Translations under genes and position numbers: made by a program
Notes under the pieces: model-generated
Seen by the model: the letters and a program-made list of their open reading frames with translations, nothing else
What the model was told of the DNA's origin: nothing
Database searches by the model: none
Part shown: piece by piece, positions 4,991-17,993 of the stretch
Layout of the letters: every line of letters begins with the position of its first letter
Numbering within the stretch: position 1 is the first letter of the stretch
Source of the DNA: Rhodospirillaceae bacterium UBA6608
GTDB taxonomy: Bacteria > Pseudomonadota > Alphaproteobacteria > Rhodospirillales_A > Casp-alpha2
NCBI GenBank assembly: GCA_002433335.1
Contig: DJHY01000291.1
Location: 8,890-26,882, forward strand
Direction: 5' to 3'
DNA: 17,993 nt

Positions 4991-5067
4991 TGGGGCGTGG
5001 TGAAGCGGTCTAACACACCGGTTTTTGGTACCGGCACTCCCAGGTTCGAATCCTGGCGCCCCAGCCA
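4991..5067 (+). tRNA. tRNA-Gln (anticodon UUG), CCA encoded
   Basis: The cloverleaf is complete. The acceptor stem is TGGGGCG (4991-4997) with CGCCCCA (5057-5063). The anticodon stem is CCGGT (5018-5022) with ACCGG (5030-5034) around loop TTTTGGT, giving anticodon TTG at 5025-5027. The T arm is CCAGG, loop TTCGAAT, CCTGG (5040-5056). The discriminator base is G at 5064, followed by an encoded CCA. The gene is intact. A transposon terminus lies 36 bp past the discriminator base, so this gene is the likely attachment landmark. Confidence 0.96.
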
Positions 5068-5095
5068 TCTTTCGCCGCATTTCAAAATATGTAAT

Positions 5096-5100
5096 CCAGC
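5096..5100. other. Candidate target-site duplication (one copy)
   Basis: Tn7-like elements duplicate 5 bp of target. CCAGC lies immediately before the TGT terminus at 5101 and would be the duplicated pentamer. The second copy must lie beyond the right edge of the window, so this is a prediction only. Confidence 0.35.
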
Positions 5101-5165
5101 TGTCGGAAACATCTTAGTTTGTCCAATCACAGCTTAGATTGTCCAAATGACAATTTAACTTGTCC
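5101..5165. repeat. Tn7-like transposon end with four TnsB-type binding repeats
   Basis: The stretch starts with TGT, the conserved terminus of Tn7-like and Tn5053-like elements. TGTC(C/G) recurs at 5101, 5120, 5140 and 5161, spacings of 19, 20 and 21 bp. The last three copies are preceded by a shared AT-rich half, giving TTAGTTTGTCC (5114-5124), TTAGATTGTCC (5134-5144) and TTAACTTGTCC (5155-5165). An inverted copy, TTAAATTGTCA on the minus strand, overlaps at 5148-5158. Helically phased tandem sites that start at the terminus are the architecture to which TnsB transposases bind. The tniQ and tnsA genes further right support the reading. Confidence 0.8.
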
Positions 5166-5475
5166 GCTTCCGCACCAAAATTCCTTCATATAGAACACGA
5201 TAGAAAGCGCCGGAGATGTCCGGATCTTCCGTCGAGGTTTTTTTGCCTTCCGACCGATGCCCGGAAATTTAGAAACCGAGCAATGCTAAATCCGCTCCGG
5301 ATTTGTACGCGCTTGAAATCGGGCGCCGCATCCAGTATCTAAGGCACAAGCGACAACCATACCTCACATAGCCGCGGCCACCCGCGGACATCGAAGCGCG
5401 ACAGCGAAGCTGGCCCGCGCTTTTTGTGTTTGTCGTTTGCTCTCAAAAACTCAAATCAATCGGGAGGCAGAAGTC
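5166..5475. other. Gene-free 310-bp stretch with several hairpins
   Basis: I see no convincing gene here. A 60-codon frame from 5160 lacks a ribosome-binding site and any protein-like pattern. The interval holds a 7-bp hairpin (AAATCCG/CGGATTT, 5288-5304), a 6-bp CCGCGG hairpin (5372-5387) and a nested hairpin followed by five Ts (5394-5425). Together they could be a structured leader for the following gene or a small RNA. T7 at 5239-5245 follows no clear stem. Confidence 0.4.
5394..5425 (+). terminator. Terminator-like nested hairpin or attenuator
   Basis: AAGCGCG (5394-5400) pairs with CGCGCTT (5416-5422), enclosing a second hairpin CAGC-GAA-GCTG (5402-5412). Five Ts end the structure at 5425. 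It reads as a rightward intrinsic terminator, yet no protein gene precedes it on the + strand within the element. It could end a small RNA, block transcription entering from the chromosome, or attenuate the gene that starts 50 bp later. Confidence 0.5.
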
Positions 5476-6201
5476 ATGCGCAATGACATTGCCAAAGTCA
5501 TCGTCGAGCGCCCACGCCAAGGCGGTCACGGCGCGCGCAAGGGGCGCGCCTCGCGTGACCTTGAACTTGCGCGGTACGCGGTCGGCATGAAGCGTGCAGC
5601 GTCCGAGTCCGGCGACCGCAAGATGCTCAACGAGAACCTCGCGCCGCTCCGGCGCTACTTTGGCCGCCAGGTCGGGCGCCCTTGGAACAAGGTGTGGTCG
5701 GAGGTCTGCGCCAACCTTCGTGTCACCTCGACCGTGCAACAGCATGTCCGCGATCACATCAGCGACTTCGTCGCGTACGAAGGTGTTTCGCGGCGCAACG
5801 GCCAGGTGTACGTCCACTCGTACTGGGGCGGCGCAAGACCACTGGAAATCTCCTTGTTTGAGTTCTGGGTCGATCCGGCAACCGGGATCCTCCGCCGGAA
5901 CAAGAGACAGCAAACCTACCGTATGAAGCAGAAGGCTCGCCAAGCAGCATGGATCTCGGAACTGGGCAAACGGATGGTCGAACGCGACGCCTGGCATCAG
6001 TTCCATCTTTTGGACGACGGAGCTTGGTGGGAAGTTGCGCTGGAACAGGAACCCCCGAAACCGCCGGTCGTCGACGTTGTCTTGAGCGCCGGGTTGTCCG
6101 CCCTCTCGCCGGGCCGACTGTACGGCCGTTCAGGCGTCTATGCGATCGGCAAACGGCAACTCTCTAAGAAAGAGATCAAACGCTTGAAGCTGTCCCGTTA
6201 A
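5476..6201 (+). CDS. Conserved hypothetical protein of unknown function
   Basis: This is a 241-residue, Arg- and Trp-rich soluble protein. The N-terminus reads MRNDIAKVIVERPRQGG and is strongly basic. A central block runs LNENLAPLRRYFGRQVGRPWNKVWSE (about residues 51-76), then STVQQHVRDHISDFV (85-99). A later FWVDPATGILRRNK motif and a basic tail (KKEIKRLKLSR) follow. I associate this pattern with a widespread hypothetical family but know no function for it. The basic ends suggest nucleic-acid or ribosome contact, which is inference only. ATG 5476 has GGGAGG eight bases upstream; an upstream TTG (5437) is less likely. It is the first cargo gene inside the transposon end and stands alone in its direction. 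Confidence 0.75.
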   Translation: MRNDIAKVIVERPRQGGHGARKGRASRDLELARYAVGMKRAASESGDRKMLNENLAPLRRYFGRQVGRPWNKVWSEVCANLRVTSTVQQHVRDHISDFVAYEGVSRRNGQVYVHSYWGGARPLEISLFEFWVDPATGILRRNKRQQTYRMKQKARQAAWISELGKRMVERDAWHQFHLLDDGAWWEVALEQEPPKPPVVDVVLSAGLSALSPGRLYGRSGVYAIGKRQLSKKEIKRLKLSR

Positions 6202-6288
6202 CCAGCTAATGCGCCGCATGATCGAAGGGCGGGACAGAAACAGAACCATGGCAGCGCGAATTTCGGCGCCCCGACCTGTTGAATGATA

Positions 6289-6726
6289 TTAGATCATTCG
6301 CTTAATCTCGACGTACTCGCCGCGAACGCGAAGCGTGACCGTAACGTCCTGGCGCCCGCGATTGCGCCAGAACCAGCCGTGGTTGCCGTCGAAAGCGGCC
6401 TCCAGGGTGCCGCTGTGGTTCTTAACCTTGCGGTCTTTCTTGTAGCTGATGTTCTTGCCGCCGCCGTCGCCGTGCAGGTCGTAGTTCACCGCGCCGTTTT
6501 TGACCGTCCACGAAAACTCCGCCTTTCCTCCCTTGGCCATGGTCAATTTGACCTCGGCCCCCTGGCCGGGCTTCAGCGTGATCGACACTTCATCCTTCCA
6601 GGCCGCTTCATTGCTTTGTGCCTGAGCCTGCCCGATTGCACCCGGGATACCGACATGGTGAGGCAGGGACAGGGCTGAGCCGATCAGCAGGGCCGCGGTC
6701 AGGCCGTGAAGAAGACGAGATTTCAT
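6289..6726 (-). CDS. Secreted protein, twin of the HupE-linked anchored domain
   Basis: The 145-residue protein has an N-terminal signal peptide (MKSRLLHG, hydrophobic core, AQAQ near residue 37) and then a single domain from residue 43 to the end. That domain aligns without gaps over 103 residues to the C-terminal domain of the protein encoded at 7193-7870, with 69 identities by eye count (about 67%). The most conserved parts are PGQGAEVKL, DLHGDGGGK and GNHGWFWRN. His, Asp and Trp residues are invariant in the pair and could bind a metal or a ligand, which is inference. It is the last gene of the leftward operon and has GGAG 11 bases before its ATG. It looks like a free periplasmic version of an anchored sensor or binding domain. 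Confidence 0.8.
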   Translation of the reverse strand: MKSRLLHGLTAALLIGSALSLPHHVGIPGAIGQAQAQSNEAAWKDEVSITLKPGQGAEVKLTMAKGGKAEFSWTVKNGAVNYDLHGDGGGKNISYKKDRKVKNHSGTLEAAFDGNHGWFWRNRGRQDVTVTLRVRGEYVEIKRMI

Positions 6727-6776
6727 GATTTAAGTTTCTCCGTTCGATAAAGGGCGCGGACAATGGATCCGCCAAT

Positions 6777-7130
6777 CTAAGGACAGGGCCAACGCTGGGC
6801 ATAGGCCCGCGCGAGGCTGACATGGGCTTCTTCTTCAGGGGGCGTCGGGTTCTTTTCAAGCCAGGCCATTCCAACGATCACCAAATAGACGGATGACGCA
6901 TTCTCCGGAATACAGGCCCGCATGCCATGAATATCACCCGTTTTCAGTTTACCGCGAACATGGGCGATGAGCTTCTCGCATTTGTCGAACCGGCGGGACG
7001 CGTCATGATCTGCGCTCGTCACAAGGCATATCGATTCGAGTTGATCGACACCGATGCTTTCGGCTGCCTTCGCATCGGCGAAAGACACCATCATTGCGAA
7101 GACGATCCCGGCTCCGAGGTGTCGCAACAT
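6777..7130 (-). CDS. Secreted four-cysteine protein, Rap1a/Tai-like
   Basis: The 117-residue protein has a signal peptide (MLRHLGAGIVFAMMVSFADAKA) and four cysteines at residues 35, 51, 73 and 116. The pattern is ESICL, then CEKLIAHVRG, then ACIP, then a C-terminal LARAYAQRWPC. This resembles the Rap1a/Tai immunity-protein fold, in which paired disulfides hold a small helical periplasmic protein. In this context it is unlikely to be an effector immunity gene and more likely a periplasmic partner of the metal module. ATG 7130 with AGGA about five bases upstream is chosen over an in-frame extension to 7187. It sits between the two twin-domain genes, 62 bp after one and 50 bp before the other. 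Confidence 0.7.
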   Translation of the reverse strand: MLRHLGAGIVFAMMVSFADAKAAESIGVDQLESICLVTSADHDASRRFDKCEKLIAHVRGKLKTGDIHGMRACIPENASSVYLVIVGMAWLEKNPTPPEEEAHVSLARAYAQRWPCP

Positions 7131-7192
7131 CGTCCTTTTCCCAGTCTGTTGGCCGCCGGGCGGCGCGGGCCGTGTAGTGGCCTGCATCGCCG

Positions 7193-7870
7193 TTAGATCA
7201 GTCGTTTGAGCTCCAAGTAGTCGCCCCGAACCCGGAGCGTGACCTTGATGGGCTGATTTTCCCGGTTGCGCCAGAACCAGCCGTGGTTGCCGGTAAAGGC
7301 CGCCTCCAGCCTCCCTTCATGGCCCGGCACGCCCCGGCCTTTCTGATAAGCAATGGACTTGCCGCCGCCGTCGCCGTGCAGGTCGTAATTGGCAACGCCG
7401 CCGTCGACACTCCAATGGAACTCCGCCACGGCCCCTTCGTCCATCACCAGTTTGACCTCGGCGCCCTGACCGGGCACCAGCGTGAAGGAGATTTCCTCCT
7501 TCCATGTCGGGGCCTGGGCCTCCGCCGTCTTTTGCGGCTCAGCCGGTTTCGCCGAATCGGCGGAAGGTGCTGCGACTTGCGCGGGCGCCGACGGTTTCGG
7601 CGGCTCCGCGGCCGGCGTCATGGGCTGCTGCTCCATGGCGGCGGTCTGCTCCTGATCCGCCTTGGCTTCCGCTTCCAGTTGCGTCTTGATTTCGCCCATC
7701 TCGGTCAGCCCCAGGACACGGCCGATGCCGGTGGGGTCGATGGCATATTCGGCGGGCAGGACGATCGTGACCAGAATGACGGCCGCCGAAACCAGGGCAT
7801 AGAACGTCGAACGCAGAAGCCTGCCGGTCGTCGGCAATTCGCTCTGAGAAGGGATTTCGGAATTGAACAT
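7193..7870 (-). CDS. Membrane-anchored periplasmic protein linked to HupE
   Basis: The 225-residue protein has a short cytosolic N-terminus (FNSEIPSQSELPTTGRLLRS), one membrane segment at about residues 22-40, then the block PAEYAIDPTGIGRVLGLTEMGEIK (39-62). A Pro/Ala/Glu linker follows (about 65-120), and then a C-terminal 103-residue domain (123-225) shared with the secreted protein at 6289-6726. The N-terminal part matches proteins commonly annotated as transmembrane anchor protein, whose role is unknown. ATG 7870 has AAAGG about eight bases upstream. It follows the HupE-like gene by 17 bp, so the two are co-translated. The domain probably faces the periplasm near the permease. Confidence 0.82.
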   Translation of the reverse strand: MFNSEIPSQSELPTTGRLLRSTFYALVSAAVILVTIVLPAEYAIDPTGIGRVLGLTEMGEIKTQLEAEAKADQEQTAAMEQQPMTPAAEPPKPSAPAQVAAPSADSAKPAEPQKTAEAQAPTWKEEISFTLVPGQGAEVKLVMDEGAVAEFHWSVDGGVANYDLHGDGGGKSIAYQKGRGVPGHEGRLEAAFTGNHGWFWRNRENQPIKVTLRVRGDYLELKRLI

Positions 7871-7887
7871 GGATTGACCTTTCGGGA

Positions 7888-8580
7888 TTAGGAAACGAAG
7901 TAACCGGTGAGCTGGTAGCCGATGAGAATGAACCCGGCGCTCATCATCGCGACGTTCACCGTATAGGCGCGGCGGATGAAGCTGTCGGTGCGCCGCCACC
8001 AACCCATCAGCACGAGGATCGCAGCGAGCGCCGTCAGCTGGCCCAGTTCGACGCCGACGTTGAAGGCCAACAGATTGGGGATCAGGCCGTCTTCGGCAAT
8101 GTCATAGTCGATGATCTTCGAAGCCAGACCGAAGCCATGGCAGAACCCGAAGATCAGGGTCGCCCATTTGGTGTTGGGCTGGAAGCCGAACCAGCGCTGA
8201 TAGGCGCCCAAGTTGTCGAGCGCCTTGTAGACGATGGAAAAACCGATGATGGCGTCGATGATGTAGCTGTTGATGCCGAAGTCGAACAGCACGCCGAGCA
8301 GCATGGTCGTCGAATGGCCGAGCGCGAACAGGCTGACGTAGATGGCGATGTGCTTCATCCGGTAGAGGAAGAAGATCACCCCGAACAGGAACAGAATGTG
8401 GTCGTAGCCCGTCACCATGTGCTTGGCGCCCAGGTACGAAAACGGCAGGAGCAAAACACCCGAGACTTCGAGGATATAGCCCTTGTCGCCCTGGGCGACG
8501 GCGTGGGCCTGCGCGGCATCAATGCTTGCGAGGCAAAGGAAAAGGGCGCCCAAGGCCGCCCCGGCGAGTGTTCTGATCAT
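7888..8580 (-). CDS. HupE/UreJ-family membrane protein (probable nickel/cobalt permease)
   Basis: The 230-residue protein starts with a signal-like helix ending AQAHA (residues 1-26) and has about six further membrane segments. HupE/UreJ proteins are linked to nickel or cobalt transport. Family landmarks are KHMVTGYDHILFL (53-65), FALGHSTTM (85-93) and GFCHGFGLA (145-153), which together supply His54, Asp60, His61, His89 and His148 as candidate metal ligands. The start at ATG 8580 places the signal helix at the N-terminus. An ATG eight codons upstream (8604) is also possible. It heads the leftward operon and diverges from a metal-sensing repressor. Import versus export cannot be decided from sequence. 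Confidence 0.85.
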   Translation of the reverse strand: MIRTLAGAALGALFLCLASIDAAQAHAVAQGDKGYILEVSGVLLLPFSYLGAKHMVTGYDHILFLFGVIFFLYRMKHIAIYVSLFALGHSTTMLLGVLFDFGINSYIIDAIIGFSIVYKALDNLGAYQRWFGFQPNTKWATLIFGFCHGFGLASKIIDYDIAEDGLIPNLLAFNVGVELGQLTALAAILVLMGWWRRTDSFIRRAYTVNVAMMSAGFILIGYQLTGYFVS

Positions 8581-8625
8581 TGTGGCCCTATCTGCGGTTT
8601 GCATCGTTAGCGGTACATCATTGGC

Positions 8626-8658
8626 TTGACCATAACCTATCCAGGGGGATAGGATCAA
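8626..8658. promoter_or_regulatory. Overlapping divergent promoters with a metal-repressor operator
   Basis: The perfect inverted repeat CCTATCC-AGGG-GGATAGG (8636-8653) contains a G5 run, as in RcnR/CsoR/InrS-type operators. It fills the spacers of two opposed promoters. Rightward: TTGACC (8626-8631), 18 bp, TAGGAT (8650-8655). Leftward: TTGATC (8658-8653), 17 bp, TTATGG (8635-8630). One bound repressor tetramer would block both. The rightward start would fall at or next to the repressor ATG, implying a leaderless or nearly leaderless mRNA. The repeat and boxes are seen; binding is inferred. Confidence 0.7.
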
Positions 8659-8660
8659 GC

Positions 8661-8939
8661 ATGGACGGAACGCACAGACATCAAAGTCACCCGGTTGTGA
8701 TCAACCGCCTGAAACGGGCGCACGGCCACCTTCGCAAGGTCATTGAAATGATCGAGGCCGGGCGGCCGTGCCTGGACGTTGCGCAACAACTTCATGCGGT
8801 CGAGAGCGCAGTGGCGAATGCAAAGACCACGCTGATCGAAGACCACCTGGACCACTGCCTGGACACCGTCGTCGGCCCCATGGACGCCGACCAGCGCCAG
8901 GAGATCGCCGATTTCAAGGCGATCGCCAAATACCTCTAG
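8661..8939 (+). CDS. CsoR/RcnR/InrS-family metal-sensing repressor
   Basis: This 92-residue all-helical repressor is of the DUF156 family, which binds G-tract operators as a tetramer and lets go when it binds metal. The family core is clear: VINRLKRAHGHLRKVIEMIE (12-32), GRPCLDVAQQLHAVESAV (34-51), then EDHLDHCLD (60-68). Cys37, His62 and Cys66 match the Cys-His-Cys set of copper-sensing CsoR. His21 and His65, plus an N-terminal HRHQSH, add ligands seen in nickel sensors such as InrS and RcnR. With an NreB/NrsD-like exporter next door, nickel or cobalt is the better guess. The gene starts 7 bp after its own operator and probably represses both directions. Confidence 0.88.
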   Translation: MDGTHRHQSHPVVINRLKRAHGHLRKVIEMIEAGRPCLDVAQQLHAVESAVANAKTTLIEDHLDHCLDTVVGPMDADQRQEIADFKAIAKYL

Positions 8940-8962
8940 TTACGGATCGAACGGGCGCGGCC

Positions 8963-10282
8963 ATGCTGGGCGTCCTTGCCAACAGAACCTATCGCAACCT
9001 TTTCCTCGCCCAGGTGATCTCGCTTGTTGGGACCGGGCTGGGCACGGTTGCGCTGGCCCTGCTGGCTTTCAATATCGCGGGCGACAAGGCGGGTGCAGTC
9101 CTGGGCACGGCGTTATTCATCAAGATGGCCGCCTATGTGGGGCTGTCGCCCATTGCGGGCGCGCTCGCGGGCCTGCTGCCCCGGCGGGCGTTCCTGGTGT
9201 CGCTCGATGCCGTGCGCACGGGCATCGCACTGATGCTGCCTTTCGTGACCCAGACCTGGCAGATCTACCTGTTGATCTTTTTCCTGCAGGCGGCCTCGGC
9301 GGCCTTCACCCCGACCTTCCAGGCCACCATTCCGGACGTCCTGCCGGACGAAGGCGAGTACACCAAGGCACTGTCCCTATCGCGTCTGGCTTATGATCTG
9401 GAAAACCTGCTCAGCCCGGCGATCGCGGGCGCGCTGCTTACCGTGATGACCTTCCACGATCTCTTCGTCGGGACGGCCTTGGGTTTCGTCGCTTCCGCGC
9501 TTTTCGTCCTGTCGGTTTCCCTGCCGTCGCCGAAGACGGCTCAACTCCGCAGCTTCCGCGACCGCCTGTTCCGGGGAACGCGGATTTTCTTCGCCACGCC
9601 CCGGCTGCGCGGGCTGATGGCGGTCAACCTCGCGGTTGCCGCGGGCGGTGCCTTCGTGATCGTCAACACTGTCGTTTTCGTGCAGTCCCGGTTCGGGCTG
9701 ACGGAGCAGCAGACGGCCCTGGCCCTGGCGTCGTTCGGCGGCGGGTCCATGCTGGTCGCACTTGCCCTGCCGCGCCTGCTGGCCCGCGCGCCGGACCGAT
9801 TGGCGATGCTGACCGGCGTTGCGGTCCTGGCCGCCGGCACTGGCTTGGCCTCGATGGCAGGAGACTTCGAACTTTTGCTCGGCCTGTGGTTTGTCCTCGG
9901 CGGCGGATACTCCCTGGCCCTCACGCCGTCCGGACGGTTGCTCCGGCGCTCCACGCATCCTGAGGACCGCCCGGCGGTGTTCGCAGCGCAGTTCGCCCTG
10001 TCCCATGCCTGCTGGCTGATCACCTATCCCCTGGCGGGATGGGTGGGTGCCGCGTTCGGCCTGCCGGTCAGCGCCTCGGTCTTGGCCGGTGTCGCCTTCG
10101 CCGGCGTCGTCGGGGCGGCCCTGTTGTGGCCCAGGACCGACCGGGAAGTCGTCGAGCACGACCATCCCGACCTGCCCGACGGCCATCCGCATCTGGCCGA
10201 GGGCGACCACCGAGGCGATCACCGCCACGCCCACGCCTACGTCATCGACGACCTGCACTACATGTGGCCCCATGGCCGGTGA
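8963..10282 (+). CDS. MFS transporter, NreB/NrsD-like nickel exporter
   Basis: The 439-residue major-facilitator protein has about twelve membrane segments (from residue 12 to about 392) with the first-half motif SRACLLPRRAF-like region at AGLLPRRAFLVSLDAVRTG. Its cytosolic C-terminus (about 395-439) carries ten histidines, for example EHDHPDLPDGHPHL and DHRGDHRHAHAY. His-rich tails of this type mark the nickel exporters NreB and NrsD. It lies 23 bp after the metal repressor and would be induced with it. The ATG at 8963 begins just before the first helix; the frame is open upstream but overlaps the repressor gene. Nickel or cobalt export is inferred from the tail and context. Confidence 0.82.
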   Translation: MLGVLANRTYRNLFLAQVISLVGTGLGTVALALLAFNIAGDKAGAVLGTALFIKMAAYVGLSPIAGALAGLLPRRAFLVSLDAVRTGIALMLPFVTQTWQIYLLIFFLQAASAAFTPTFQATIPDVLPDEGEYTKALSLSRLAYDLENLLSPAIAGALLTVMTFHDLFVGTALGFVASALFVLSVSLPSPKTAQLRSFRDRLFRGTRIFFATPRLRGLMAVNLAVAAGGAFVIVNTVVFVQSRFGLTEQQTALALASFGGGSMLVALALPRLLARAPDRLAMLTGVAVLAAGTGLASMAGDFELLLGLWFVLGGGYSLALTPSGRLLRRSTHPEDRPAVFAAQFALSHACWLITYPLAGWVGAAFGLPVSASVLAGVAFAGVVGAALLWPRTDREVVEHDHPDLPDGHPHLAEGDHRGDHRHAHAYVIDDLHYMWPHGR

Positions 10283-10712
10283 CCTTGCGGCCTACGGCGG
10301 GCTGTTCCTGGTCGCCTTCCTGGCGGCGACGATCCTGCCCGCCCAATCGGAGATCGGCCTCGCCGGCTTGATCCTGTCGGGCGATTACAGCATCGGCCTG
10401 CTGATTGCCGTGGCGAGTCTTGGCAACACCCTCGGCGCCGTCGTCAACTGGGCGCTCGGGCGCTGGGTCGAACACTTCCGGGACCGCAAATGGTTCCCGG
10501 CCAAGCCGCAGCAGTTGGACAAGGCCGTCGGCTGGTATCACCGATATGGACGGTGGAGCCTGCTCTTGAGCTGGATGCCGTTCATCGGCGATCCGCTGAC
10601 CCTGGCGGCGGGCGTGCTGCGGGAGCCGTTCTGGAGTTTTCTCGCAATCGTCGCCTTCGCGAAAACGGCCCGCTATATCGTCGTCGCCGGAATCACGTTG
10701 GGCAGCGTATAA
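10272..10712 (+). CDS. YqaA-family (VTT/DedA-like) membrane protein
   Basis: The 146-residue membrane protein resembles YqaA, a short relative of DedA/VTT-domain proteins. Landmarks are PAQSEIGLAGLI (23-34), VASLGNTLGAVVNWALGRW (47-65), and a second hairpin SWMPFIGDPLTLAAGVLR followed by a final helix. VTT proteins are implicated in lipid scrambling and envelope homeostasis; the role of YqaA itself is not settled. The ATG at 10272 overlaps the end of the MFS gene by 11 bp, so translation is coupled. Its place in the metal operon suggests an accessory role in envelope metal tolerance, which is inference. Confidence 0.82.
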   Translation: MAGDLAAYGGLFLVAFLAATILPAQSEIGLAGLILSGDYSIGLLIAVASLGNTLGAVVNWALGRWVEHFRDRKWFPAKPQQLDKAVGWYHRYGRWSLLLSWMPFIGDPLTLAAGVLREPFWSFLAIVAFAKTARYIVVAGITLGSV

Positions 10713-10819
10713 TCAAGAGACTGATCTTGACGTCGATCAATGTGCCTTACGACCAATCGTGGAATATCTACGCGCGTAAATCGCGAAGGGCCAAGACCCG
10801 CAGCCATTCAGGAATCATC

Positions 10820-11980
10820 ATGAAACGTGCTCTCAAATTAGGTTTGGTCGTTCTCGCGCTGGTCGCAATAGGTGCGGCAACGGCCGCCTATATCCGCTCC
10901 CGTCCATTCACCGTTGCCGTGGCCGCCATAGAGCAAGACGTCCCCGTTCAGGTCTTCGGCCTCGGGACCGTTGAAGCGCGGATCATCTCGCACATCGGTT
11001 TCGAAGCGGGCGGCGCTCTGGTTGAAATCAACGCAGATCACGGCGACCGGGTCGAACGCGGCACCATTCTTGCCCGGCTCGCCGATGCGGAAGCGAAGGC
11101 TCGTGTTGCGAAAGCAGAAGCCGCACTCGCCCAAGCCAAAGCCAATCTAGAGCGCGCCCTGGCTCGGGTACGAAGTGCTGAAGCCACCTTGGTACAGAAA
11201 CGCAGCATAAAGGAACGGCGCCAGGCATTGGTCGGCAGCGGCACGACCTCGAAGGAGGCTGCCGAGGACGCTCGTGCCGCCGCGGATGTCGCCGCCGCCG
11301 AATTGGCCGTCGCCCAGAGCGACGCAACCGTTGCGGAAGCAGCCATCAAGGACGCGGAAGCGCAGGTTCAACTCGAGACCGCAGTGCTTGGCAACCACGT
11401 TCTGTCGGCACCCTACGACGCGCTGGTAATAGGCAGGCGCATGGAATTGGGCGCCGTTGTCGCGCCGGGTGAAGCCATCTTCTCGCTGATCGACCCAAAT
11501 TCTGTTTGGACCCGAGCCTTCGTCGACGAATCCCAGGCTGGCGACCTGAAACTCGGGCAGCCTGCGGAAGTTCGCCTGCGGTCTCTGCCGCGCCAAGTAT
11601 TCACAGCGCATGTCGACCGTATCGAAATCGAAAGCGATCGCGTCACCGAGGAACGCCGCGTCTACCTGAAGTGCGACCAGTGCCCCCCCAACGTCTTCCT
11701 GGGGGAACAAGCCGAGGTCTACATCACGGTGACACGGCTCGAGACCGCCATGCCGGTGCCGGAGACGGCCATCGACCGGTTCGATGGAGTACACGGGATC
11801 GTATGGACCGTGATTGACGGCGCACTGCGCCGCCAGCGGGTCACTTTTAGCCATCGCTTGCTCGATGGCCGGGTAGTGCTAACCGACGGCTTGCCAGCCG
11901 GCGCCGAAGTGGTGATCAATCCAAGAACGAAATTCCGCGAGGGACGTGCAGCCCAGATTTCCAAGGCGGCCACGCCATGA
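10820..11980 (+). CDS. HlyD/RND-type periplasmic adaptor of an ABC exporter (DevB-like)
   Basis: The 386-residue membrane-fusion protein has one N-terminal membrane anchor (about 7-25), a first lipoyl half (GLGTVEARIISHIGFEAGG, 47-65), an Ala/Glu/Lys coiled-coil hairpin (about 88-190), and the second lipoyl half (LSAPYDALVIGRRMELGAVV, 195-214). A beta-barrel and membrane-proximal region follow. Such adaptors link an inner-membrane ABC pump to an outer-membrane channel. It has an unusual CxxC at Cys285-Cys288 in the barrel region. ATG 10820 has AGGA about five bases upstream; a long open extension upstream (from 10490) only overlaps the YqaA gene. It overlaps the permease gene by four bases (ATGA). 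Confidence 0.88.
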   Translation: MKRALKLGLVVLALVAIGAATAAYIRSRPFTVAVAAIEQDVPVQVFGLGTVEARIISHIGFEAGGALVEINADHGDRVERGTILARLADAEAKARVAKAEAALAQAKANLERALARVRSAEATLVQKRSIKERRQALVGSGTTSKEAAEDARAAADVAAAELAVAQSDATVAEAAIKDAEAQVQLETAVLGNHVLSAPYDALVIGRRMELGAVVAPGEAIFSLIDPNSVWTRAFVDESQAGDLKLGQPAEVRLRSLPRQVFTAHVDRIEIESDRVTEERRVYLKCDQCPPNVFLGEQAEVYITVTRLETAMPVPETAIDRFDGVHGIVWTVIDGALRRQRVTFSHRLLDGRVVLTDGLPAGAEVVINPRTKFREGRAAQISKAATP

Positions 11981-13110
11981 ACCTAGCCGCCCGTGATCTA
12001 TGGCACAATTTCAGCCGTTTTCTGCTGACCTGTATTGGGCTTGGACTGTTGTTGGGCGTTGTGCAGTCCATGGTCGGCATCTACCGCGGGATTGTGGTCG
12101 AAGGCGCGACCATGGCCAGAGCCGCGGGCGCTGACTTATGGGTCGTGGAAGCCGGATCTAGAGGACCGTTCGCAGCATCATCGCGGATTCCGGGTGACAC
12201 GCGCGAGGCCGTGGCACGAATGCATGGCGTCGAGGCGGCCGGAAGTCTCACTTACCAATCGGTCGAGGGATTCCACGCAGGGAAAAAGGTTCGTTTGTAC
12301 TTGGTCGGGTATGAGCTCGGCCGTCCCGGCGGACCGGCGGCGATTGCCGCTGGCCGGAACATAGCACGTAGTCACTACGAACTTGTCTTGGACCGCCGTG
12401 CAGGCATTGGTCTGGGCGAGCGCATACAACTCGGCCGCAACAGCTTCACCGTTGTCGGACTGACCGAAAACTTGGTCAGTTCAGGTGGCGATCCTGCCGC
12501 TTTCATTACCTTGCTGGACTCCCAGGAATTACAGTTCGAACTCGCCCCGCCGGCGGCACGCCGAGAAATTGCCCGCGGCACCGGAACGGGAAGCACAGAC
12601 ACGGTGAACGCCGTTGTGGCACGCGTTCACGCCAATGTCCCGGCGGATGAGGTCGCGACAACGGTAAAGCGTTGGAAGCACCTGGCGGCATTGACCGAGG
12701 CGGAACAGGAAGATGTCCTGACGCGCTCCGTGGTCGAGCGGGCCGCCCGCCAGATCGGCCTGTTCACAGTCATCCTGATGCTGGTGTCGACGGTGATCAT
12801 TTCGCTCATCGTCTACACGATGACGCTGGACAAAAGGCGCGAGATCGCGACGCTTAAGCTGATCGGCGCCCCGGACCGGCGCATCGTCGGGATGATCATC
12901 CAGCAGGCTCTGGCGATGGGTTTGGTCGGCCTTCTGTTTGGCGCCACGATGGTCAATCTCATCGTCGATTTTTTCCCTCGGCGCGTCGTCCTGTTGCTGC
13001 CCGACGGGCTCGCCCTGGCAGGCATCGTCGTTTTGGTCTGCTTGCTGGCAAGCACGATCAGCGTGCGGTATGCCCTGAAGATCGACCCCGCGACGGCACT
13101 GGCGGGCTGA
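11977..13110 (+). CDS. ABC exporter permease, FtsX/MacB type (DevC-like)
   Basis: The 377-residue protein has the MacB-type layout without the fused ATPase. There is an N-terminal helix (about 13-35), a large periplasmic domain (about 40-255) with NLVSSGGDPAAF and AALTEAEQEDVL, then the FtsX domain with three helices (about 258-284, 305-330, 342-362). The coupling segment TMTLDKRREIATLKLIGAP after the second helix is the classic contact with the ATPase. The length matches DevC-like permeases that pair with a separate DevA ATPase. It overlaps the adaptor gene by ATGA and ends two bases before the ATPase start. The substrate is unknown; DevBCA relatives export glycolipids or peptides. Confidence 0.88.
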   Translation: MNLAARDLWHNFSRFLLTCIGLGLLLGVVQSMVGIYRGIVVEGATMARAAGADLWVVEAGSRGPFAASSRIPGDTREAVARMHGVEAAGSLTYQSVEGFHAGKKVRLYLVGYELGRPGGPAAIAAGRNIARSHYELVLDRRAGIGLGERIQLGRNSFTVVGLTENLVSSGGDPAAFITLLDSQELQFELAPPAARREIARGTGTGSTDTVNAVVARVHANVPADEVATTVKRWKHLAALTEAEQEDVLTRSVVERAARQIGLFTVILMLVSTVIISLIVYTMTLDKRREIATLKLIGAPDRRIVGMIIQQALAMGLVGLLFGATMVNLIVDFFPRRVVLLLPDGLALAGIVVLVCLLASTISVRYALKIDPATALAG

Positions 13111-13112
13111 CG

Positions 13113-13838
13113 ATGGATCAAGCCGTCCCACCGCTTGTCGAGCTCCACCAAGTGTCGAAGCATTTCGGAGAAGGCGACACACGTGTAGACGCGCTCCGCG
13201 AGATCGATTTGAACGTCGCTCCCGGCGAACTGATCGGTCTCGTCGGACCGAGCGGATCAGGAAAAAGTACGCTGCTCAACGTGATCGGCTGTATTCTGGA
13301 ACCAAGCAGCGGATCGATGCATCTCGACGGCGACTTGGTCTATGACGGCCGTTGGCTGCGCGGAGACCTGCGCCGCCTCCGCCTCGACAAGATCGGTTTC
13401 ATTTTCCAGTGGCATAATCTGCTGCCCTTCCTCAATGCCGTAGACAACGTCGCGGTCGTTCTCGATCTTATCGGCGCAGAACGAGATACGGCCCGAGGGC
13501 GAGCAGAGGAATTGCTGGAATACCTGGATATCGGAAAGCGGCGCGACGCCATGCCCGCGAATCTCTCCGGCGGCGAGGCGCAGCGTGTGGCAATTGCCAG
13601 GGCCCTGGCCAACGAACCTCGCATTATCCTGGCCGACGAACCCACGGCGGCACTGGATTCCGAACGCGCCGCCATCGTCATGGACCTGTTGCACCGGGTC
13701 GCACGCGAGCGTCAGGCAGCGATCATCGTGGTGACGCACGACGAGAAGGTGTTCAATCGCTTCGACCGCATCGTCCGCCTACGCGACGGGCGATTGGAGA
13801 GTGAAGCCACTCCAGCTGCTTCTACAGCGGACGATTGA
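13113..13838 (+). CDS. ABC exporter ATPase, MacB/LolD type (DevA-like)
   Basis: The 241-residue nucleotide-binding protein powers the adjacent permease. Walker A is GPSGSGKST (45-53), the Q-loop glutamine is Gln99, and the signature is LSGGEAQRVAIARAL (151-165). Walker B is IILADEPTAALD (171-182), and the switch histidine is His209 in VTHD. All catalytic residues are intact. The domain order and the short insert LIFLD-like region match the MacB/LolD/DevA exporter group. ATG 13113 lies two bases after the permease stop. A 72-bp gap separates it from the next gene, so the operon may continue. Confidence 0.92.
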   Translation: MDQAVPPLVELHQVSKHFGEGDTRVDALREIDLNVAPGELIGLVGPSGSGKSTLLNVIGCILEPSSGSMHLDGDLVYDGRWLRGDLRRLRLDKIGFIFQWHNLLPFLNAVDNVAVVLDLIGAERDTARGRAEELLEYLDIGKRRDAMPANLSGGEAQRVAIARALANEPRIILADEPTAALDSERAAIVMDLLHRVARERQAAIIVVTHDEKVFNRFDRIVRLRDGRLESEATPAASTADD

Positions 13839-13910
13839 CCTGGAACCCCCAAGACGAAGCCGAACGCCAACAACGAATAATGGGCACCAATCGAGTTGCG
13901 GAGGAAGTGT

Positions 13911-14864
13911 GTGAATACAGCGTCTATCAAATGCTTTGCGCTGGCGGTCCTTGCCATCCTAACGAGCGGCGCTGTATCGGCGCAGGCCGCTGACATCCTG
14001 CCGCCCCCGGAACGCGTTTCGGAAAACGTCTATGCCTGGATCGGCCCCCTCGACGGCCCCAACACGCAAAACCAAGGCTACCGCATGAACCTCGCCTTCG
14101 TCGTCGGCACGGATGCCGTCGCCGTGTTCGACACGGGCTACACGCGGGAAATGGGCGATGAGATGATCGCTCATATCAAACGCGTGACTGCGCTGCCGAT
14201 CCGCTACGCGATCAATTCCAACTCGCAGCCGCATCGATATTTCGGCAACGATGCGTTCCATGCCATCGGCGCGGAGATCATGGCGACGCCAGAGGAACTG
14301 GCCCGCATGGAAGGCATGGGTGGCATGTTCGCCATGTTCAGCGCTCAGGCCCTGGGTCTCAAGGACGGTGCGGTCCCCGCACCAATAGCGCCTGTACAAA
14401 AAGTAACAAGCTCCCGGACGCTCGACCTCGGCGGTGGAATCACCTTGCGCATTCTGCCGGCAGGTGGGAACCACACGCCCAACTCGCTGATCGCCGATGT
14501 TCCCTCCGACAAGGTCCTTCTGGCCGGCGACGTTCTGTATGGAGAACGGTTGCTGGCAGTCCTGGATGTCAGTCAGCCGAAGGAATGGATCGATACCTTC
14601 GACGGCTTGCGTCGGTTCAAGGACTATCTGTTCGTCCCGGGCCATGGCCGGCCCGGACCACTCGCCATTTTCGAGGGGCCGACCTACCGCTATCTCTCCA
14701 ACATATGGGACTACATGTGCAAAGCGGTGGGCGCCGGCGTCGACTTGGATTCGGCGGTCAAGTCCTACGACCAATCCGCCTATTCCGGACTTGTGAACTT
14801 CGATAATCTCAGTGGACGGAACGCCAGCTGGACCTATCAGAAGGCCGAGTTCGCCTGTTTCTGA
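13911..14864 (+). CDS. Exported metallo-beta-lactamase-fold protein lacking HxHxDH
   Basis: The 317-residue protein has a signal peptide (residues 1-26, ending AVSAQA) and an MBL fold resembling the periplasmic quinoprotein-relay zinc hydrolase group. The strand FVVGTDAVAVFDTGYT (63-78) and later landmarks GGNHTPNSLIAD (His188), LLAGDVLY (Asp207) and FVPGHG (His245) are present. At the zinc motif, where HxHxDH should stand, it reads NSNSQPHRYFGN (102-113), so the two His, the Asp and the last His are replaced by Asn104, Gln106, His108 and Arg109. It may be a non-catalytic binding protein or use another metal site. GTG 13911 is chosen because GGAGG precedes it by about seven bases. It follows the ABC operon by 72 bp. 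Confidence 0.82.
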   Translation: MNTASIKCFALAVLAILTSGAVSAQAADILPPPERVSENVYAWIGPLDGPNTQNQGYRMNLAFVVGTDAVAVFDTGYTREMGDEMIAHIKRVTALPIRYAINSNSQPHRYFGNDAFHAIGAEIMATPEELARMEGMGGMFAMFSAQALGLKDGAVPAPIAPVQKVTSSRTLDLGGGITLRILPAGGNHTPNSLIADVPSDKVLLAGDVLYGERLLAVLDVSQPKEWIDTFDGLRRFKDYLFVPGHGRPGPLAIFEGPTYRYLSNIWDYMCKAVGAGVDLDSAVKSYDQSAYSGLVNFDNLSGRNASWTYQKAEFACF

Positions 14865-14900
14865 TGACCTGTTGCCGCGTACCTTTGAGGAAAGCCGAAC

Positions 14901-15932
14901 ATGCGGAAGCGCGTCGCCATCCTGTTTCCCGCCCCGGAGGGATCTCGGAACGTTGTCCTGGAAGATACGCGGTTCGCTGAAACTGCGGCGGCGTTACGTG
15001 CGACGGGTTTGGACGTTGAAGCGGCACCCTATGCGGATCAATTCATCGACGATGCCCGCGACCAACTTCTGGGCGTAGACGGCGTCTTGGTCTGGGTCAA
15101 TCCGGTTGAAGGAGAGCAAAATCGAGCGCTGCTTAACGGATTATTGTCGGACATCGCCGAACGGGGGGTATTCGTCAGCGCCCATCCCGACGTCATTCGA
15201 AAGATGGGCACCAAGGCAATCCTCTATCAGACCCGCTCCATGCCCTGGGGCTGCGACACGCGCCATTACACTTCCCTTGAACAGATGCAGGCGGAACTGC
15301 CGGAGCGCCTGAGCCGGCACGGCGCGGTCGTCTTGAAACGAGTGCGCGGGAACGGCGGCAATGGCGTCTGGCGGGTGGCGCCCGCAGATCCCGCCGCCAC
15401 CGTTACGCTAACCTCCCGGCTCCACGTGCGCCACGCCAAGCGGGGCAGCACCGAGGAGGAAATGGCGCCCGAGGAGCTATATGCCATCTGCGCGTCCTAT
15501 TTCGAAGACGGAGACGGAATGATCGACCAGCCCTATCAGGCGCGCCTGGCCGACGGCATGGTGCGCTGTTACATGGTCCACGACCGTGTCGCGGGGTTCG
15601 GCGAACAACTGATCAACGCGCTGCATCCGGCGGTGCCGGACCCGGGCGAGCGCCTCTATTTCCCGCCGACGCGACCGGATTTTCAGCCGCTGAAGACGAT
15701 GCTGGAAACGGACTGGCTGCCCGAACTGTGCCGCCGCCTTGACCTCCAACCGCATGATCTCCCGATCATCTGGGATGCCGATTTTCTTTACGGCCCGAAA
15801 GATGCGGCGGGCGCCGACACGTTCGTTCTATGTGAGATCAACGTCAGTTCCGTCTATCCGTTTCCCGACGACGCGCTGAAGCCGATCGCCGAAGCGGCAT
15901 CCGCCAGATTGGCAGTTCCGCCGAAAACTTAA
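14901..15932 (+). CDS. Cj0069-family ATP-grasp-like protein
   Basis: The 343-residue soluble protein matches the pattern of the Cj0069 family, which carries an ATP-grasp-like fold. The N-terminal part is a Rossmann-like domain (VAILFPAPEGSR). The ATP lid has VVLKRVRGNGGNGVW (143-157), and near the C-terminus CEINVSSVYPFP (about 311-322) supplies the Glu-x-Asn metal pair usual in ATP-grasp ligases. An ATP-dependent ligase role on an acid substrate is inferred from the fold; the substrate is unknown. Translation starts at ATG 14901 with GAGG about 12 bases upstream, 36 bp after the MBL gene, so the two are probably co-transcribed. Confidence 0.75.
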   Translation: MRKRVAILFPAPEGSRNVVLEDTRFAETAAALRATGLDVEAAPYADQFIDDARDQLLGVDGVLVWVNPVEGEQNRALLNGLLSDIAERGVFVSAHPDVIRKMGTKAILYQTRSMPWGCDTRHYTSLEQMQAELPERLSRHGAVVLKRVRGNGGNGVWRVAPADPAATVTLTSRLHVRHAKRGSTEEEMAPEELYAICASYFEDGDGMIDQPYQARLADGMVRCYMVHDRVAGFGEQLINALHPAVPDPGERLYFPPTRPDFQPLKTMLETDWLPELCRRLDLQPHDLPIIWDADFLYGPKDAAGADTFVLCEINVSSVYPFPDDALKPIAEAASARLAVPPKT

Positions 15933-16149
15933 TCCTCTTGCTGGTGATTTCATCCACTTCCGGCAAAAAGCGGACACCACACCAAAGTCGTCGCAATAAC
16001 TCCTATTCGAGAAAGCAGACGTCTGATTCTTCAGATAAGCCCGTTCCAAATTTCCCTTGCACACGAACCTTCGCATCACTAAATACCCGCCGCTTTAAAT
16101 TGTCCTGACTTGGGCAAAGGCTGCCGCCCATGTTTGCGGCTTAACCACA
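15933..16149. promoter_or_regulatory. Control region upstream of tniQ
   Basis: There is no gene here. A weak promoter-like pair TTGCAC (16057-16062), 17 bp, TAAATA (16080-16085) would start transcription near 16092. The transposon-end motif recurs just downstream at 16095-16105. A ten-base palindrome CAGACGTCTG is at 16016-16025. Two mutually exclusive small stems, TGGGC/GCCCA (16111-16130) and GCCGC/GCGGC (16123-16140), lie just before the tniQ start. The elements are seen; their regulatory roles are inferred. Confidence 0.4.
16095..16105 (+). promoter_or_regulatory. Orphan TnsB-type site before tniQ
   Basis: TTAAATTGTCC matches the element-end consensus TTA(A/G)NTTGTCC at every position and is the only copy I found by eye outside the end at 5101-5165. 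It lies 45 bp upstream of the tniQ start and overlaps the expected transcription start, so a bound TnsB could repress tniQ-tnsA. A chance match cannot be excluded for a single 11-bp site. Confidence 0.5.
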
Positions 16150-17424
16150 TTGAACGGCCCCTGGCCATTCCGACCGCGACCGGTCGATGATGAGACGTTC
16201 TCGTCTTGGTTCTCGCGCCTGGCTTGGGCCAACGGGCTGGAACCTGGCGAGCTGTATCGCATCGCACTACCCGGCGGACGGATGCATCGAGCCGATCTGG
16301 ACAGGCTCGCCTGCGAAGACCTGATCGCCGGTTTATCGGCCCACACGGGTATCGAGCGAGGTGACTTGCTCAAGCGGACGCTGAAAGCCTGGTCCGGCCG
16401 GTTGTATGGAGAAGACGACGGCCGCAACAAGCTGCTTTGGCTGCCCGCCGCCGGCGTGCATCAAAAGTCGAAGTCGTTCGGTCAACAGGCCTGCCCCGCA
16501 TGCCTACAGGATGACGCTGTGTCACACCTCCGCTCGGTGCACCGATTGGCATTCGTCACCAGCTGCCCCCATCACAGCCGCCTGCTGATCGATAAATGCC
16601 CTGAATGCACCGCGCCAATTCAACCGCTCTACGGATCACCTCACCTAGGATCAGTTTGTCTTTGTTGGAATTGCGGTTTCGATCTTCGGCGCGCGGAGCC
16701 GCCGGAGGTCCATACGCATCGCGCCCAAGAAGAGCTGGTCCGCATTGCACAAGGCGATTGGGGCGAGCTGGGTGGGTTCGGCCGCGTCTATCCGCTCGCC
16801 TATTTCCGAATTCTCTGGATCGTTTATCGCCTACTGGCAACAGGCCGGTTTGCCTACCCGCTACGTGAGTGGACACGCCGAAACCTCGGCACGCCTGACG
16901 TACCACCATCTGCCATACCGCGCATCAAAGAGATAGAACGATTGCCGGCCCACAGCCGCCATGTCCTTACTCAGCAAGCCTACGCATTGCTCGGCGATTG
17001 GCCGTTCCGGTTCGTCGCCGCTTGCAAAGGTGTCGGCATCACGTCGCGTGTGCTCCTGAAAAACCCTGCGCAGGTACCCTTCGCATTATGGGCGCCAGCG
17101 TCGAGCGAGCTTCAAGACGGCAACTATCAACCGGCACCATCCGAAGTCGCGGCGGCGAGGGCATTCTTGCAAAGGCAAGACACGCTACCGACACGCGGCG
17201 CCTTGAGCCAAGTCCTCGGCTGCAAATCCAAGCACATCGATGAACTCGCCGTTCCCGCCGGCGACCACTGCGCCTACGGGACGAACCGCTATTGGAAACT
17301 GGACGGCGTCAGTCCCGAGGTTCGCGCGGCCGCACGCGCAGCCGCCATACATGAAGGACATAACGTCGGCCCCTGGGTCGATCAGATATTACGCGAGGCG
17401 CTCAAAAGGCGAGGCTTAGTATAA
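16150..17424 (+). CDS. tniQ: TniQ/TnsD-family target-selection protein
   Basis: TniQ/TnsD proteins bind the attachment DNA, or a CRISPR effector, and recruit TnsC and the transposase. The 424-residue protein begins with the TniQ signature PFRPRPVDDETFSSWFSRLAWANGL (about 6-30). It then carries zinc-binding pairs: Cys115/Cys118, Cys139/His142, Cys150/Cys153 and Cys170-x-Cys172-xx-Cys175. The C-terminal half (about 210-424) is longer than in minimal TniQ. It contains LPTRGALSQVLGCKSKHIDEL, which looks like a helix-turn-helix, so direct DNA recognition as in TnsD is plausible. The start is TTG 16150 without a clear ribosome-binding site; no in-frame ATG or GTG exists upstream before the stop at 16096. 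tnsA follows by 60 bp. Confidence 0.88.
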   Translation: MNGPWPFRPRPVDDETFSSWFSRLAWANGLEPGELYRIALPGGRMHRADLDRLACEDLIAGLSAHTGIERGDLLKRTLKAWSGRLYGEDDGRNKLLWLPAAGVHQKSKSFGQQACPACLQDDAVSHLRSVHRLAFVTSCPHHSRLLIDKCPECTAPIQPLYGSPHLGSVCLCWNCGFDLRRAEPPEVHTHRAQEELVRIAQGDWGELGGFGRVYPLAYFRILWIVYRLLATGRFAYPLREWTRRNLGTPDVPPSAIPRIKEIERLPAHSRHVLTQQAYALLGDWPFRFVAACKGVGITSRVLLKNPAQVPFALWAPASSELQDGNYQPAPSEVAAARAFLQRQDTLPTRGALSQVLGCKSKHIDELAVPAGDHCAYGTNRYWKLDGVSPEVRAAARAAAIHEGHNVGPWVDQILREALKRRGLV

Positions 17425-17484
17425 AAATACATGTTGGGGATTGCAGCCCGGAAAAATCACTACATATAGTATTTAGGAGGAGAG

Positions 17485-17993
17485 ATGCCGGTTAGAAAAA
17501 TTCCCATCAGCAGCCGGAGTCTGACGGGTCGCCACGCATACGGGCGCGGCAAAGATGCTGTTGGATTTGAATCGTCTCTCGAGCGGGATTTCATCTCGCT
17601 GATGCGTTTCGATATCAATGTCACGGACATCGAAGAGCAGCCCGTCCGGATTGCGTTCCAGGACAGTGCCGGCAATCATCGCCACTACACACCGGACTTC
17701 CTGGTTCATCGACGTTCCGGCACCTCGATGCTCGCCGAGATCAAACCTGCCAAGTTCGTGACGGCCGACCTCGACGACAAATTCAATGCCGCCAGGAATT
17801 TCGCCCGCAGGCGGGGTTGGATGTTCGAGGTATGGACGGAACAGCAGATCCGCATTCCCCGGTTGGAGAACGCCAAATTCCTCGTCCCCTACCAGCAAGC
17901 GGAGCCGCCGGCAGGGGCGCGCGACCGCTTACTGACCGCACTAGGTGAAACAGGTCGGACGACGGTTACCCGCCTTCTCGATGCGACATGCCG
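17485..17993 (+). CDS. tnsA: TnsA endonuclease (3' partial, runs off the window)
   Basis: TnsA is the restriction-enzyme-like nuclease that cuts the 5' ends of Tn7-like elements while TnsB cuts the 3' ends. The 169 visible residues hold the N-terminal catalytic domain: FESSLERDFISLM (28-40) with Glu33, VTDIEEQPVRIAF (46-58), HYTPDFLVHRR (68-78) with Asp71, and MLAEIKPAK (82-90) with the Glu85-x-Lys87 pair. The C-terminal domain that contacts TnsC begins near residue 140 (PPAGARDRLLTALGETG). ATG 17485 follows an excellent TAGGAGG. The frame is open to the window edge, and the family length of about 230-270 residues means roughly one third is missing. tnsB and tnsC should follow. Confidence 0.88.
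   Translation, partial: MPVRKIPISSRSLTGRHAYGRGKDAVGFESSLERDFISLMRFDINVTDIEEQPVRIAFQDSAGNHRHYTPDFLVHRRSGTSMLAEIKPAKFVTADLDDKFNAARNFARRRGWMFEVWTEQQIRIPRLENAKFLVPYQQAEPPAGARDRLLTALGETGRTTVTRLLDATC

Follow-up and report, generated by a model that had tools for sequence, protein, structure and literature searches.

Elements of the Tn5053/Tn402 family have repeats at their ends, combine TniQ with a TniB-type ATPase and lack TnsA. They target res sites (PMC11406308), whereas Tn7 reaches glmS through TnsD. In two transposons associated with clustered regularly interspaced short palindromic repeats (CRISPR), the type I-D CyCAST and the type I-B2 PmcCAST, a TniQ/TnsD protein steers the element to a position immediately beyond a transfer RNA (tRNA) gene, tRNA-Leu and tRNA-Val, respectively. 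We analyzed a stretch of 17,993 nucleotides from Rhodospirillaceae bacterium UBA6608 (hereafter, the window), in which position 5101 very probably marks where a cut-and-paste Tn7-like transposon, homing to a tRNA-Gln gene via its TniQ, ends on the tRNA side.

The likeness to CyCAST extends to distance, TnsD homing there placing the insertion 30-33 nt past the tRNA end (PMC10293859), against 28-38 bp for the elements described here. However, CyCAST and PmcCAST carry CRISPR-Cas and a second TniQ and belong to a subfamily with fused TnsA-TnsB (PMC11406308), whereas the elements described here encode TnsA and TnsB in separate genes, with a single tniQ seen, and have Gln and Ser tRNA genes as targets. 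A simple repeat scan found no CRISPR array in the window or in the stacked elements X to C of the nearest genome (G001, below), and no Cas families were found among the proteins scanned, which are only part of the elements' proteins. These elements differ from Tn7 in targeting a tRNA gene, in their short TnsC (299 aa, TniB family) and in the stacking of members of one family, which Tn7's target immunity should hinder. A preliminary description of this DNA had likened the terminus to both Tn7-like and Tn5053-like ends. TniQ and the TniB-type ATPase do recall Tn5053/Tn402, but the presence of tnsA and a tRNA gene as target set this element apart; the Tn7-like assignment stands, and that to Tn5053/Tn402 was rejected because of tnsA.

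Protein-guided tRNA homing by Tn7-like elements is already known; the C-terminal tail of TniQ, the Gln and Ser targets and the same-family stacking look new. We found no publication that pairs a Tn7-like element with tRNA-Gln, in a search that left most subscription journals outside, and nothing in the accessible literature on tRNA homing about how TniQ/TnsD reads a tRNA gene.

The left terminus and its tRNA-Gln

The features that define the junction are:

4991..5067, + strand: tRNA-Gln(UUG), probable attachment site, intact after insertion (ARAGORN).
5068..5100, + strand: 33-bp spacer from tRNA to terminus, with CCAGC at 5096-5100 as candidate 5-bp duplication.
5101..5165, + strand: left (tRNA-proximal) end, with a TGT terminus and four TGTC(G/C) sites, presumed TnsB sites (shuffles; identical copy in G001).

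The tRNA gene encodes its own CCA. TGTCG at 5101 is followed by TGTCC at 5120, 5140 and 5161, at spacings of 19, 20 and 21 bp, and a scan of both strands found this four-site TGTC array nowhere else in the window. Dinucleotide-preserving shuffles (n = 1000) produced no four-site array and one three-site array. The intact tRNA-Gln and the phased repeats of the preliminary description are therefore borne out, and its distance of 36 bp is correct when counted from the base before the CCA (5064), becoming 33 bp from the encoded CCA (5067). CCAGC, directly before the terminus, is as yet a candidate duplication only. As a control, 3 of the 29 tRNA genes in one set of fetched loci had TGTC[AG]G at 20-45 bp (one of the loci, L040, was masked); two of these belong to element carriers (G003 and G008), and we read the third, beside a T-run in G033, as chance.

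The boundary is set by the nearest genome, where 939855-952747 matches window positions 5101-17993 at 12,893 of 12,893 bases. Identity stops at the TGT terminus, the tRNA-side flank being about 80% identical, and the G001 copy (copy B) sits within the cargo of another element, in a sequence that is uninterrupted in G003. The same TGT start occurs in two contexts, and therefore the boundary is exact, which supports the earlier placement of a Tn7-like terminus at 5101. The bases before it agree at four of five positions (CCAGC in the window, CCAGG in G001), probably by chance. TnsA, TnsB, TnsC and TniQ are encoded together, as in Tn7-like transposons: tniQ and tnsA lie in the window, and tnsB and tnsC, beyond its end, follow in G001 and in element C of that genome.

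We suggest the following mechanism for an element with the gene order tniQ-tnsA-tnsB-tnsC (tnsB and tnsC as seen in relatives). The single TniQ would recognize the tRNA-Gln gene in its 3' part and act by way of TnsC, so that TnsA-TnsB place the element about 30 bp beyond the tRNA and a 5-bp duplication results; the window copy would have the same right end and duplication as its relatives. The site would remain reusable because the tRNA stays intact, so that later elements could enter between the tRNA and an older element, building a stack with the youngest nearest the tRNA.

The TniQ tail and the choice of tRNA gene

Two transposition genes are seen in the window:

16150..17424, + strand: tniQ, 424 aa, predicted target selector (Pfam), with residues 376-424 (17275-17421) modelled as a ribbon-helix-helix tail.
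17485..17993, + strand: tnsA, cut by the window's end (Pfam; 213 aa in G001).

The search for relatives of this TniQ covered 317 genomes of the order, 21 of them with a match; at the level of the genus 4 of 8 genomes matched, at that of the class 5 of 387 and 5 of 385 (overlapping), and at that of the phylum 15 of 396. Among 72,556 plasmids, 278 records matched, of which two, both Azospirillum brasilense, were examined. A contig scan added a relative with a TniQ at 76% in a metagenome-assembled genome, EAC36 (L066). We call a TniQ tailed by C-terminal sequence similarity, except for that of the window, whose tail was modelled. Broken or partial tniQ genes (G117, G133, G171 and G146:3104366) and fragments (G002 C2 and G005) were left out of the counts, and copy B, identical to the window, was not counted again. 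A six-letter tail pattern missed G1068, whose match reaches residue 418, and caught the short G747, which was counted as tailless.

A tRNA gene lies in the fetched stretch for 21 of the 24 tailed TniQs (tRNA-Gln in 16, tRNA-Ser(GGA) in 4 and tRNA-Val in 1), the remaining three (G205, G135 and G261) being on contigs of 16, 10 and 5 kb. The terminus is 28-38 bp past the tRNA in 15 of the 24, with element C of G001 counted as before X inserted, and 65-67 bp past it in two (G494, and G173, which is inside an older end). In the other four (two in G146, one in A. brasilense MTCC4039 and one in G144), tniQ and tRNA-Gln are 7.6-26 kb apart, and the search for a terminus at the tRNA found none. A terminus about 30 bp past an intact tRNA recurs in independent elements, and related elements in other genera end 28-38 bp past tRNA-Gln, in support of the preliminary view that this tRNA is the attachment site. 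G1068, found after the pattern was known, has a tRNA-Gln at 34 bp by hand count, and the excluded G117 has a terminus 28 bp past tRNA-Gln. Other tRNA calls in the stretches (tRNA-Pro and tRNA-Arg) are not beside an end.

In contrast, no tRNA adjoins any of the 19 tailless TniQs, in stretches of 9-60 kb. Fourteen of these are distant relatives, two of which (G971 and G952) have no TnsA match, but G154, G157 and G153b branch within the tailed group on the TniQ tree. Among the tailless set, G731 has tRNA-Thr and tRNA-Leu within 10 kb, with no TGTC within 90 bp of either, and G866 carries an in-frame stop. Fisher's exact test gave p = 5.7e-4 for 20/23 against 0/5, a figure that predates the addition of 15 more TniQs and ignores relatedness.

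The ribbon-helix-helix fold comes from a single model of the window's TniQ, whose mean pLDDT (the model's per-residue confidence) is about 52 at residues 371-380 and lies at 71-90 from there on. Alignment of this protein with the solved TnsD (8v32) reaches only residue 367, short of the tail. Pfam gave nothing for three of four tail fragments and one weak, unrelated match for the fourth (E 0.057), and a profile search of the PDB with the tail returned the antitoxin VapB30 at E 0.51 with unrelated proteins beside it; by sequence alone, the case for the tail is weak. Its strand RYWKLD is invariant in 15 aligned tails, associated with Gln, Ser and Val tRNA genes and including two without a located tRNA. 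The GGTTCGAATCC box is common to these tRNA genes, and the invariant strand could read it. We consider the modelled tail the best candidate for part of tRNA-gene recognition, at about an even chance.

The strongest competing explanation, which we rate somewhat below even, is that the tail represses its own gene or helps to bind the transposon ends, the tRNA gene being read by the middle of TniQ or by another protein. Ribbon-helix-helix proteins in the company of TniQ appear in PMC9938897 as separate Arc-like regulators that adjoin the genes of type V-K CRISPR-associated transposons (most subscription journals were outside this search too), and a strand invariant across Gln-, Ser- and Val-associated tails cannot alone separate Gln from Ser. 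This explanation has to contend with the distribution of tails beside tRNA genes, 21/24 against 0/19, tailless members inside the tailed group included, and with the shared GGTTCGAATCC box that the strand could read.

The panel's TniQs are 33-89% identical to that of the window and lie beside tRNA-Gln(UUG), tRNA-Gln(CUG), tRNA-Ser(GGA) or tRNA-Val. Two sister TniQs in one genome lie beside different tRNAs, E1 of G002 being at Gln and C86 of G002 at Ser. On the TniQ tree, the Ser rows do not form one clade (four changes for four rows, no better than shuffled), whereas the Gln rows are clustered (six changes against a shuffled mean of 9.4, with 7 of 500 shuffles as low), a clustering to which near-copies contribute. 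Homing to tRNA genes by TniQ/TnsD has been known from a few CRISPR-associated elements; here is a natural panel without detected CRISPR, in which sister TniQs at different tRNAs and tailless relatives make specificity testable by domain swaps.

Stacked elements, right ends and empty sites

The order of stacking can be read in G001 and G002. Element X of G001 (937446-967798, 30,353 bp) lies past tRNA-Gln, contains copy B and is flanked left and right by TATGT. It is followed by element C (967801-980502, 12,702 bp), with GCTTA on its right and, before the arrival of X, on its left. X's duplication covers the first three bases of C, and X is therefore the younger, inserted 3 bp inside C's terminus; C retains a whole end because the duplication supplies the missing bases. 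A decayed left end lies 12 bp beyond C's right end. Of the first 75 positions of their left ends, 3 distinguish X from C, the TnsB within X is 95.8% identical to that of C, and the TniQs are 88% identical. Target immunity, which for CRISPR-associated transposons is strongest directly beside the resident element (PMC11702153), should have hindered insertion of X beside the near-identical C. In X, tnsC is split (L043:8900-16100), with an insertion sequence-type transposase frame and an HlyD/ABC efflux gene set between its parts, whereas C holds an intact tns set; judging from this difference, C might help X in trans.

E1 of G002 (23,366 bp) is at the same tRNA-Gln and is flanked left and right by ATTGT; its tniQ has 42% identity. 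Its ends are of a second type, TGTAGGAAAC with TTTTTAAAA-type repeats, and it landed 3 bp within an E2 end of the window's type. In E1 (L049-L051, G002:C2), tniQ adjoins the left end and the region of an open reading frame, ORF254, also occurs in window-type elements, which looks like an exchange of ends and genes. In G173, the left-end repeats of an older window-type element at tRNA-Gln hold a 25-kb element, which has exact ACAGC duplications. The ends in the G002 and G173 stacks belong to different families, so that no immunity is to be expected there, and X on C is the only clear case of same-family stacking. Two further arrangements were seen at tRNA-Gln. In G005 (L054), a window-type left end is 51 bp past the tRNA, behind a likely short remnant of an E1-type end (TTGGAAACGAC). 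In G114 (L077), a terminus 33 bp past the tRNA is accompanied by tniQ-tnsA-tnsB-tnsC in the opposite orientation, either a reversed element or a stack of two.

Besides the exact 5-bp duplications of X, C and E1, 4 of 14 further elements scanned have them: G173, G176 (TTTTT), A. brasilense (ACTTC) and G150 (CTCAC). Inverted right ends were seen in X and C of G001, in G002 and in G173. A right-end candidate in G405 was discarded as chance, falling within tnsB. Across 8 genomes of the genus, all eight left ends with at most one mismatch are in tRNA-Gln arrays; the left-end pattern has 15 matches in total, seven with two mismatches, and three of those seven lie elsewhere (G008:C146, G004:C7 and G002:C71). 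The preliminary description expected that, in a relative lacking the element, tRNA-Gln would run straight into the far flank. This is seen for the whole array and not for the window's own element: in G004, which lacks the array, similarity to G001 reaches 6 bp past tRNA-Gln and restarts 52 bp past it, with sequence that lies 56.7 kb further along in G001. In G006 and G003, similarity to G001 extends 22 and 34 bp past the tRNA, respectively.

Several observations weigh against tRNA-guided transposition as we describe it. The window shows a left end only, its DNA ending inside tnsA before any right end, and 9 of the 14 scanned elements have no right end with a matching duplication in the fetched DNA; G117 offers a weak candidate only, and the flanks of E2 in G002 are unequal (CTTAT and TTAAT). 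Copy B lies in a cargo gene, at a site that neither adjoins a tRNA nor resembles one; it was considered and rejected as a tRNA-guided insertion, the 120 bp upstream scoring 11 against tRNA-Gln where the background mean is 13.9. Finally, G003 has a left end 29 bp past tRNA-Gln and no tniQ in its genome at E 1e-5. The preliminary description held that the same repeats in relatives without tniQ or tnsA would count against a transposon end, and G003 literally presents that situation. We read G003 as carrying an incomplete or decayed member of the same family, because elsewhere the repeats accompany transposon genes or decayed elements in the same array.

That the window is a misassembly, joining the tRNA-Gln flank of one species to an element from a G001-like cell, we regard as unlikely. 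The 12.9 kb at 100% identity beside a flank at about 80% would fit such a join, and left ends are nearly identical within the family, so an assembler could switch there; but the junction is at the expected position, other genomes have the same junction with elements of their own, and a switch inside the repeats would still leave a real left end at this tRNA. Slightly less probable still is that recombination between element ends, in place of repeated insertion at the tRNA, built the stacks. No right end of its own was found for copy B, which makes X a mosaic, but X, C and E1 are each bounded left and right by an exact duplication, and their order is simply explained only by successive insertion. 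Finally, that the tRNA is a mere neighbor and this is a tRNA-integrating island of the tyrosine-recombinase type with incidental repeats is highly improbable: an integrase-like frame, read by eye, does follow tRNA-Gln in G146 and G144, but identity to the G001 copy stops at the terminus and not within the tRNA, relatives have 5-bp duplications and inverted TnsB-type ends, and the distance from tRNA to terminus recurs in many genera. In G146 and G144 (L079 and L084), that frame comes right after the tRNA and the Tn7-like cluster is 20-26 kb further; to judge from these sequences, two kinds of mobile element may share tRNA-Gln there.

Returning to TniQ-guided homing, we tentatively propose, while thinking it rather less probable than otherwise, a distinct protein-guided Tn7-like lineage. 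The ribbon-helix-helix tail of its one TniQ would read the GGTTCGAATCC box and the middle region of TniQ would set Gln against Ser; target immunity would be weak or lacking, so that near-identical elements accumulate at a single tRNA, and a set of several layers could be mobilized together, from the outer left to the inner right end. The stacks record insertion order and raise the question of whether this lineage shows target immunity, a point that bears on multi-copy insertion tools.

ORF254 and the cargo

Between the left end and tniQ lie:

5437..6201, + strand: ORF254, 254 aa (241 aa from the ATG at 5476), function not assigned, kept beside the left end in the genus.
6289..15932: cargo, comprising a HupE/UreJ-like protein, an MFS transporter, an HlyD-type protein with permease and ABC ATPase frames, a metallo-beta-lactamase-fold protein and DUF6815 (Pfam; the permease and ABC ATPase frames were named by eye from translations).

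The whole element was not found on plasmids, the best coverage being 9%. Of 3306 candidates, 2827 are related to ORF254 at E <= 0.001. The protein falls in no Pfam, NCBIfam, PHROG or PADLOC family, and its model (pLDDT 80.9) matched nothing in the PDB at E <= 0.001. Six occurrences, in three genomes, were counted among 199 genomes of the order: five occurrences adjoin left ends at tRNA-Gln, including that of E1 with its different end type, and one is on the contig of a tRNA-Ser element. A role for ORF254 as target selector is unsupported, because elements without it also sit by tRNAs: no match was found at E 1e-8 in G008 or in elements outside the genus, in the stretches then fetched. Two minus-strand cargo frames (6289-6726 and 7193-8002), with no Pfam family, have related C-terminal parts; in the G001 copy, the two share 72% DNA identity over 312 bp.
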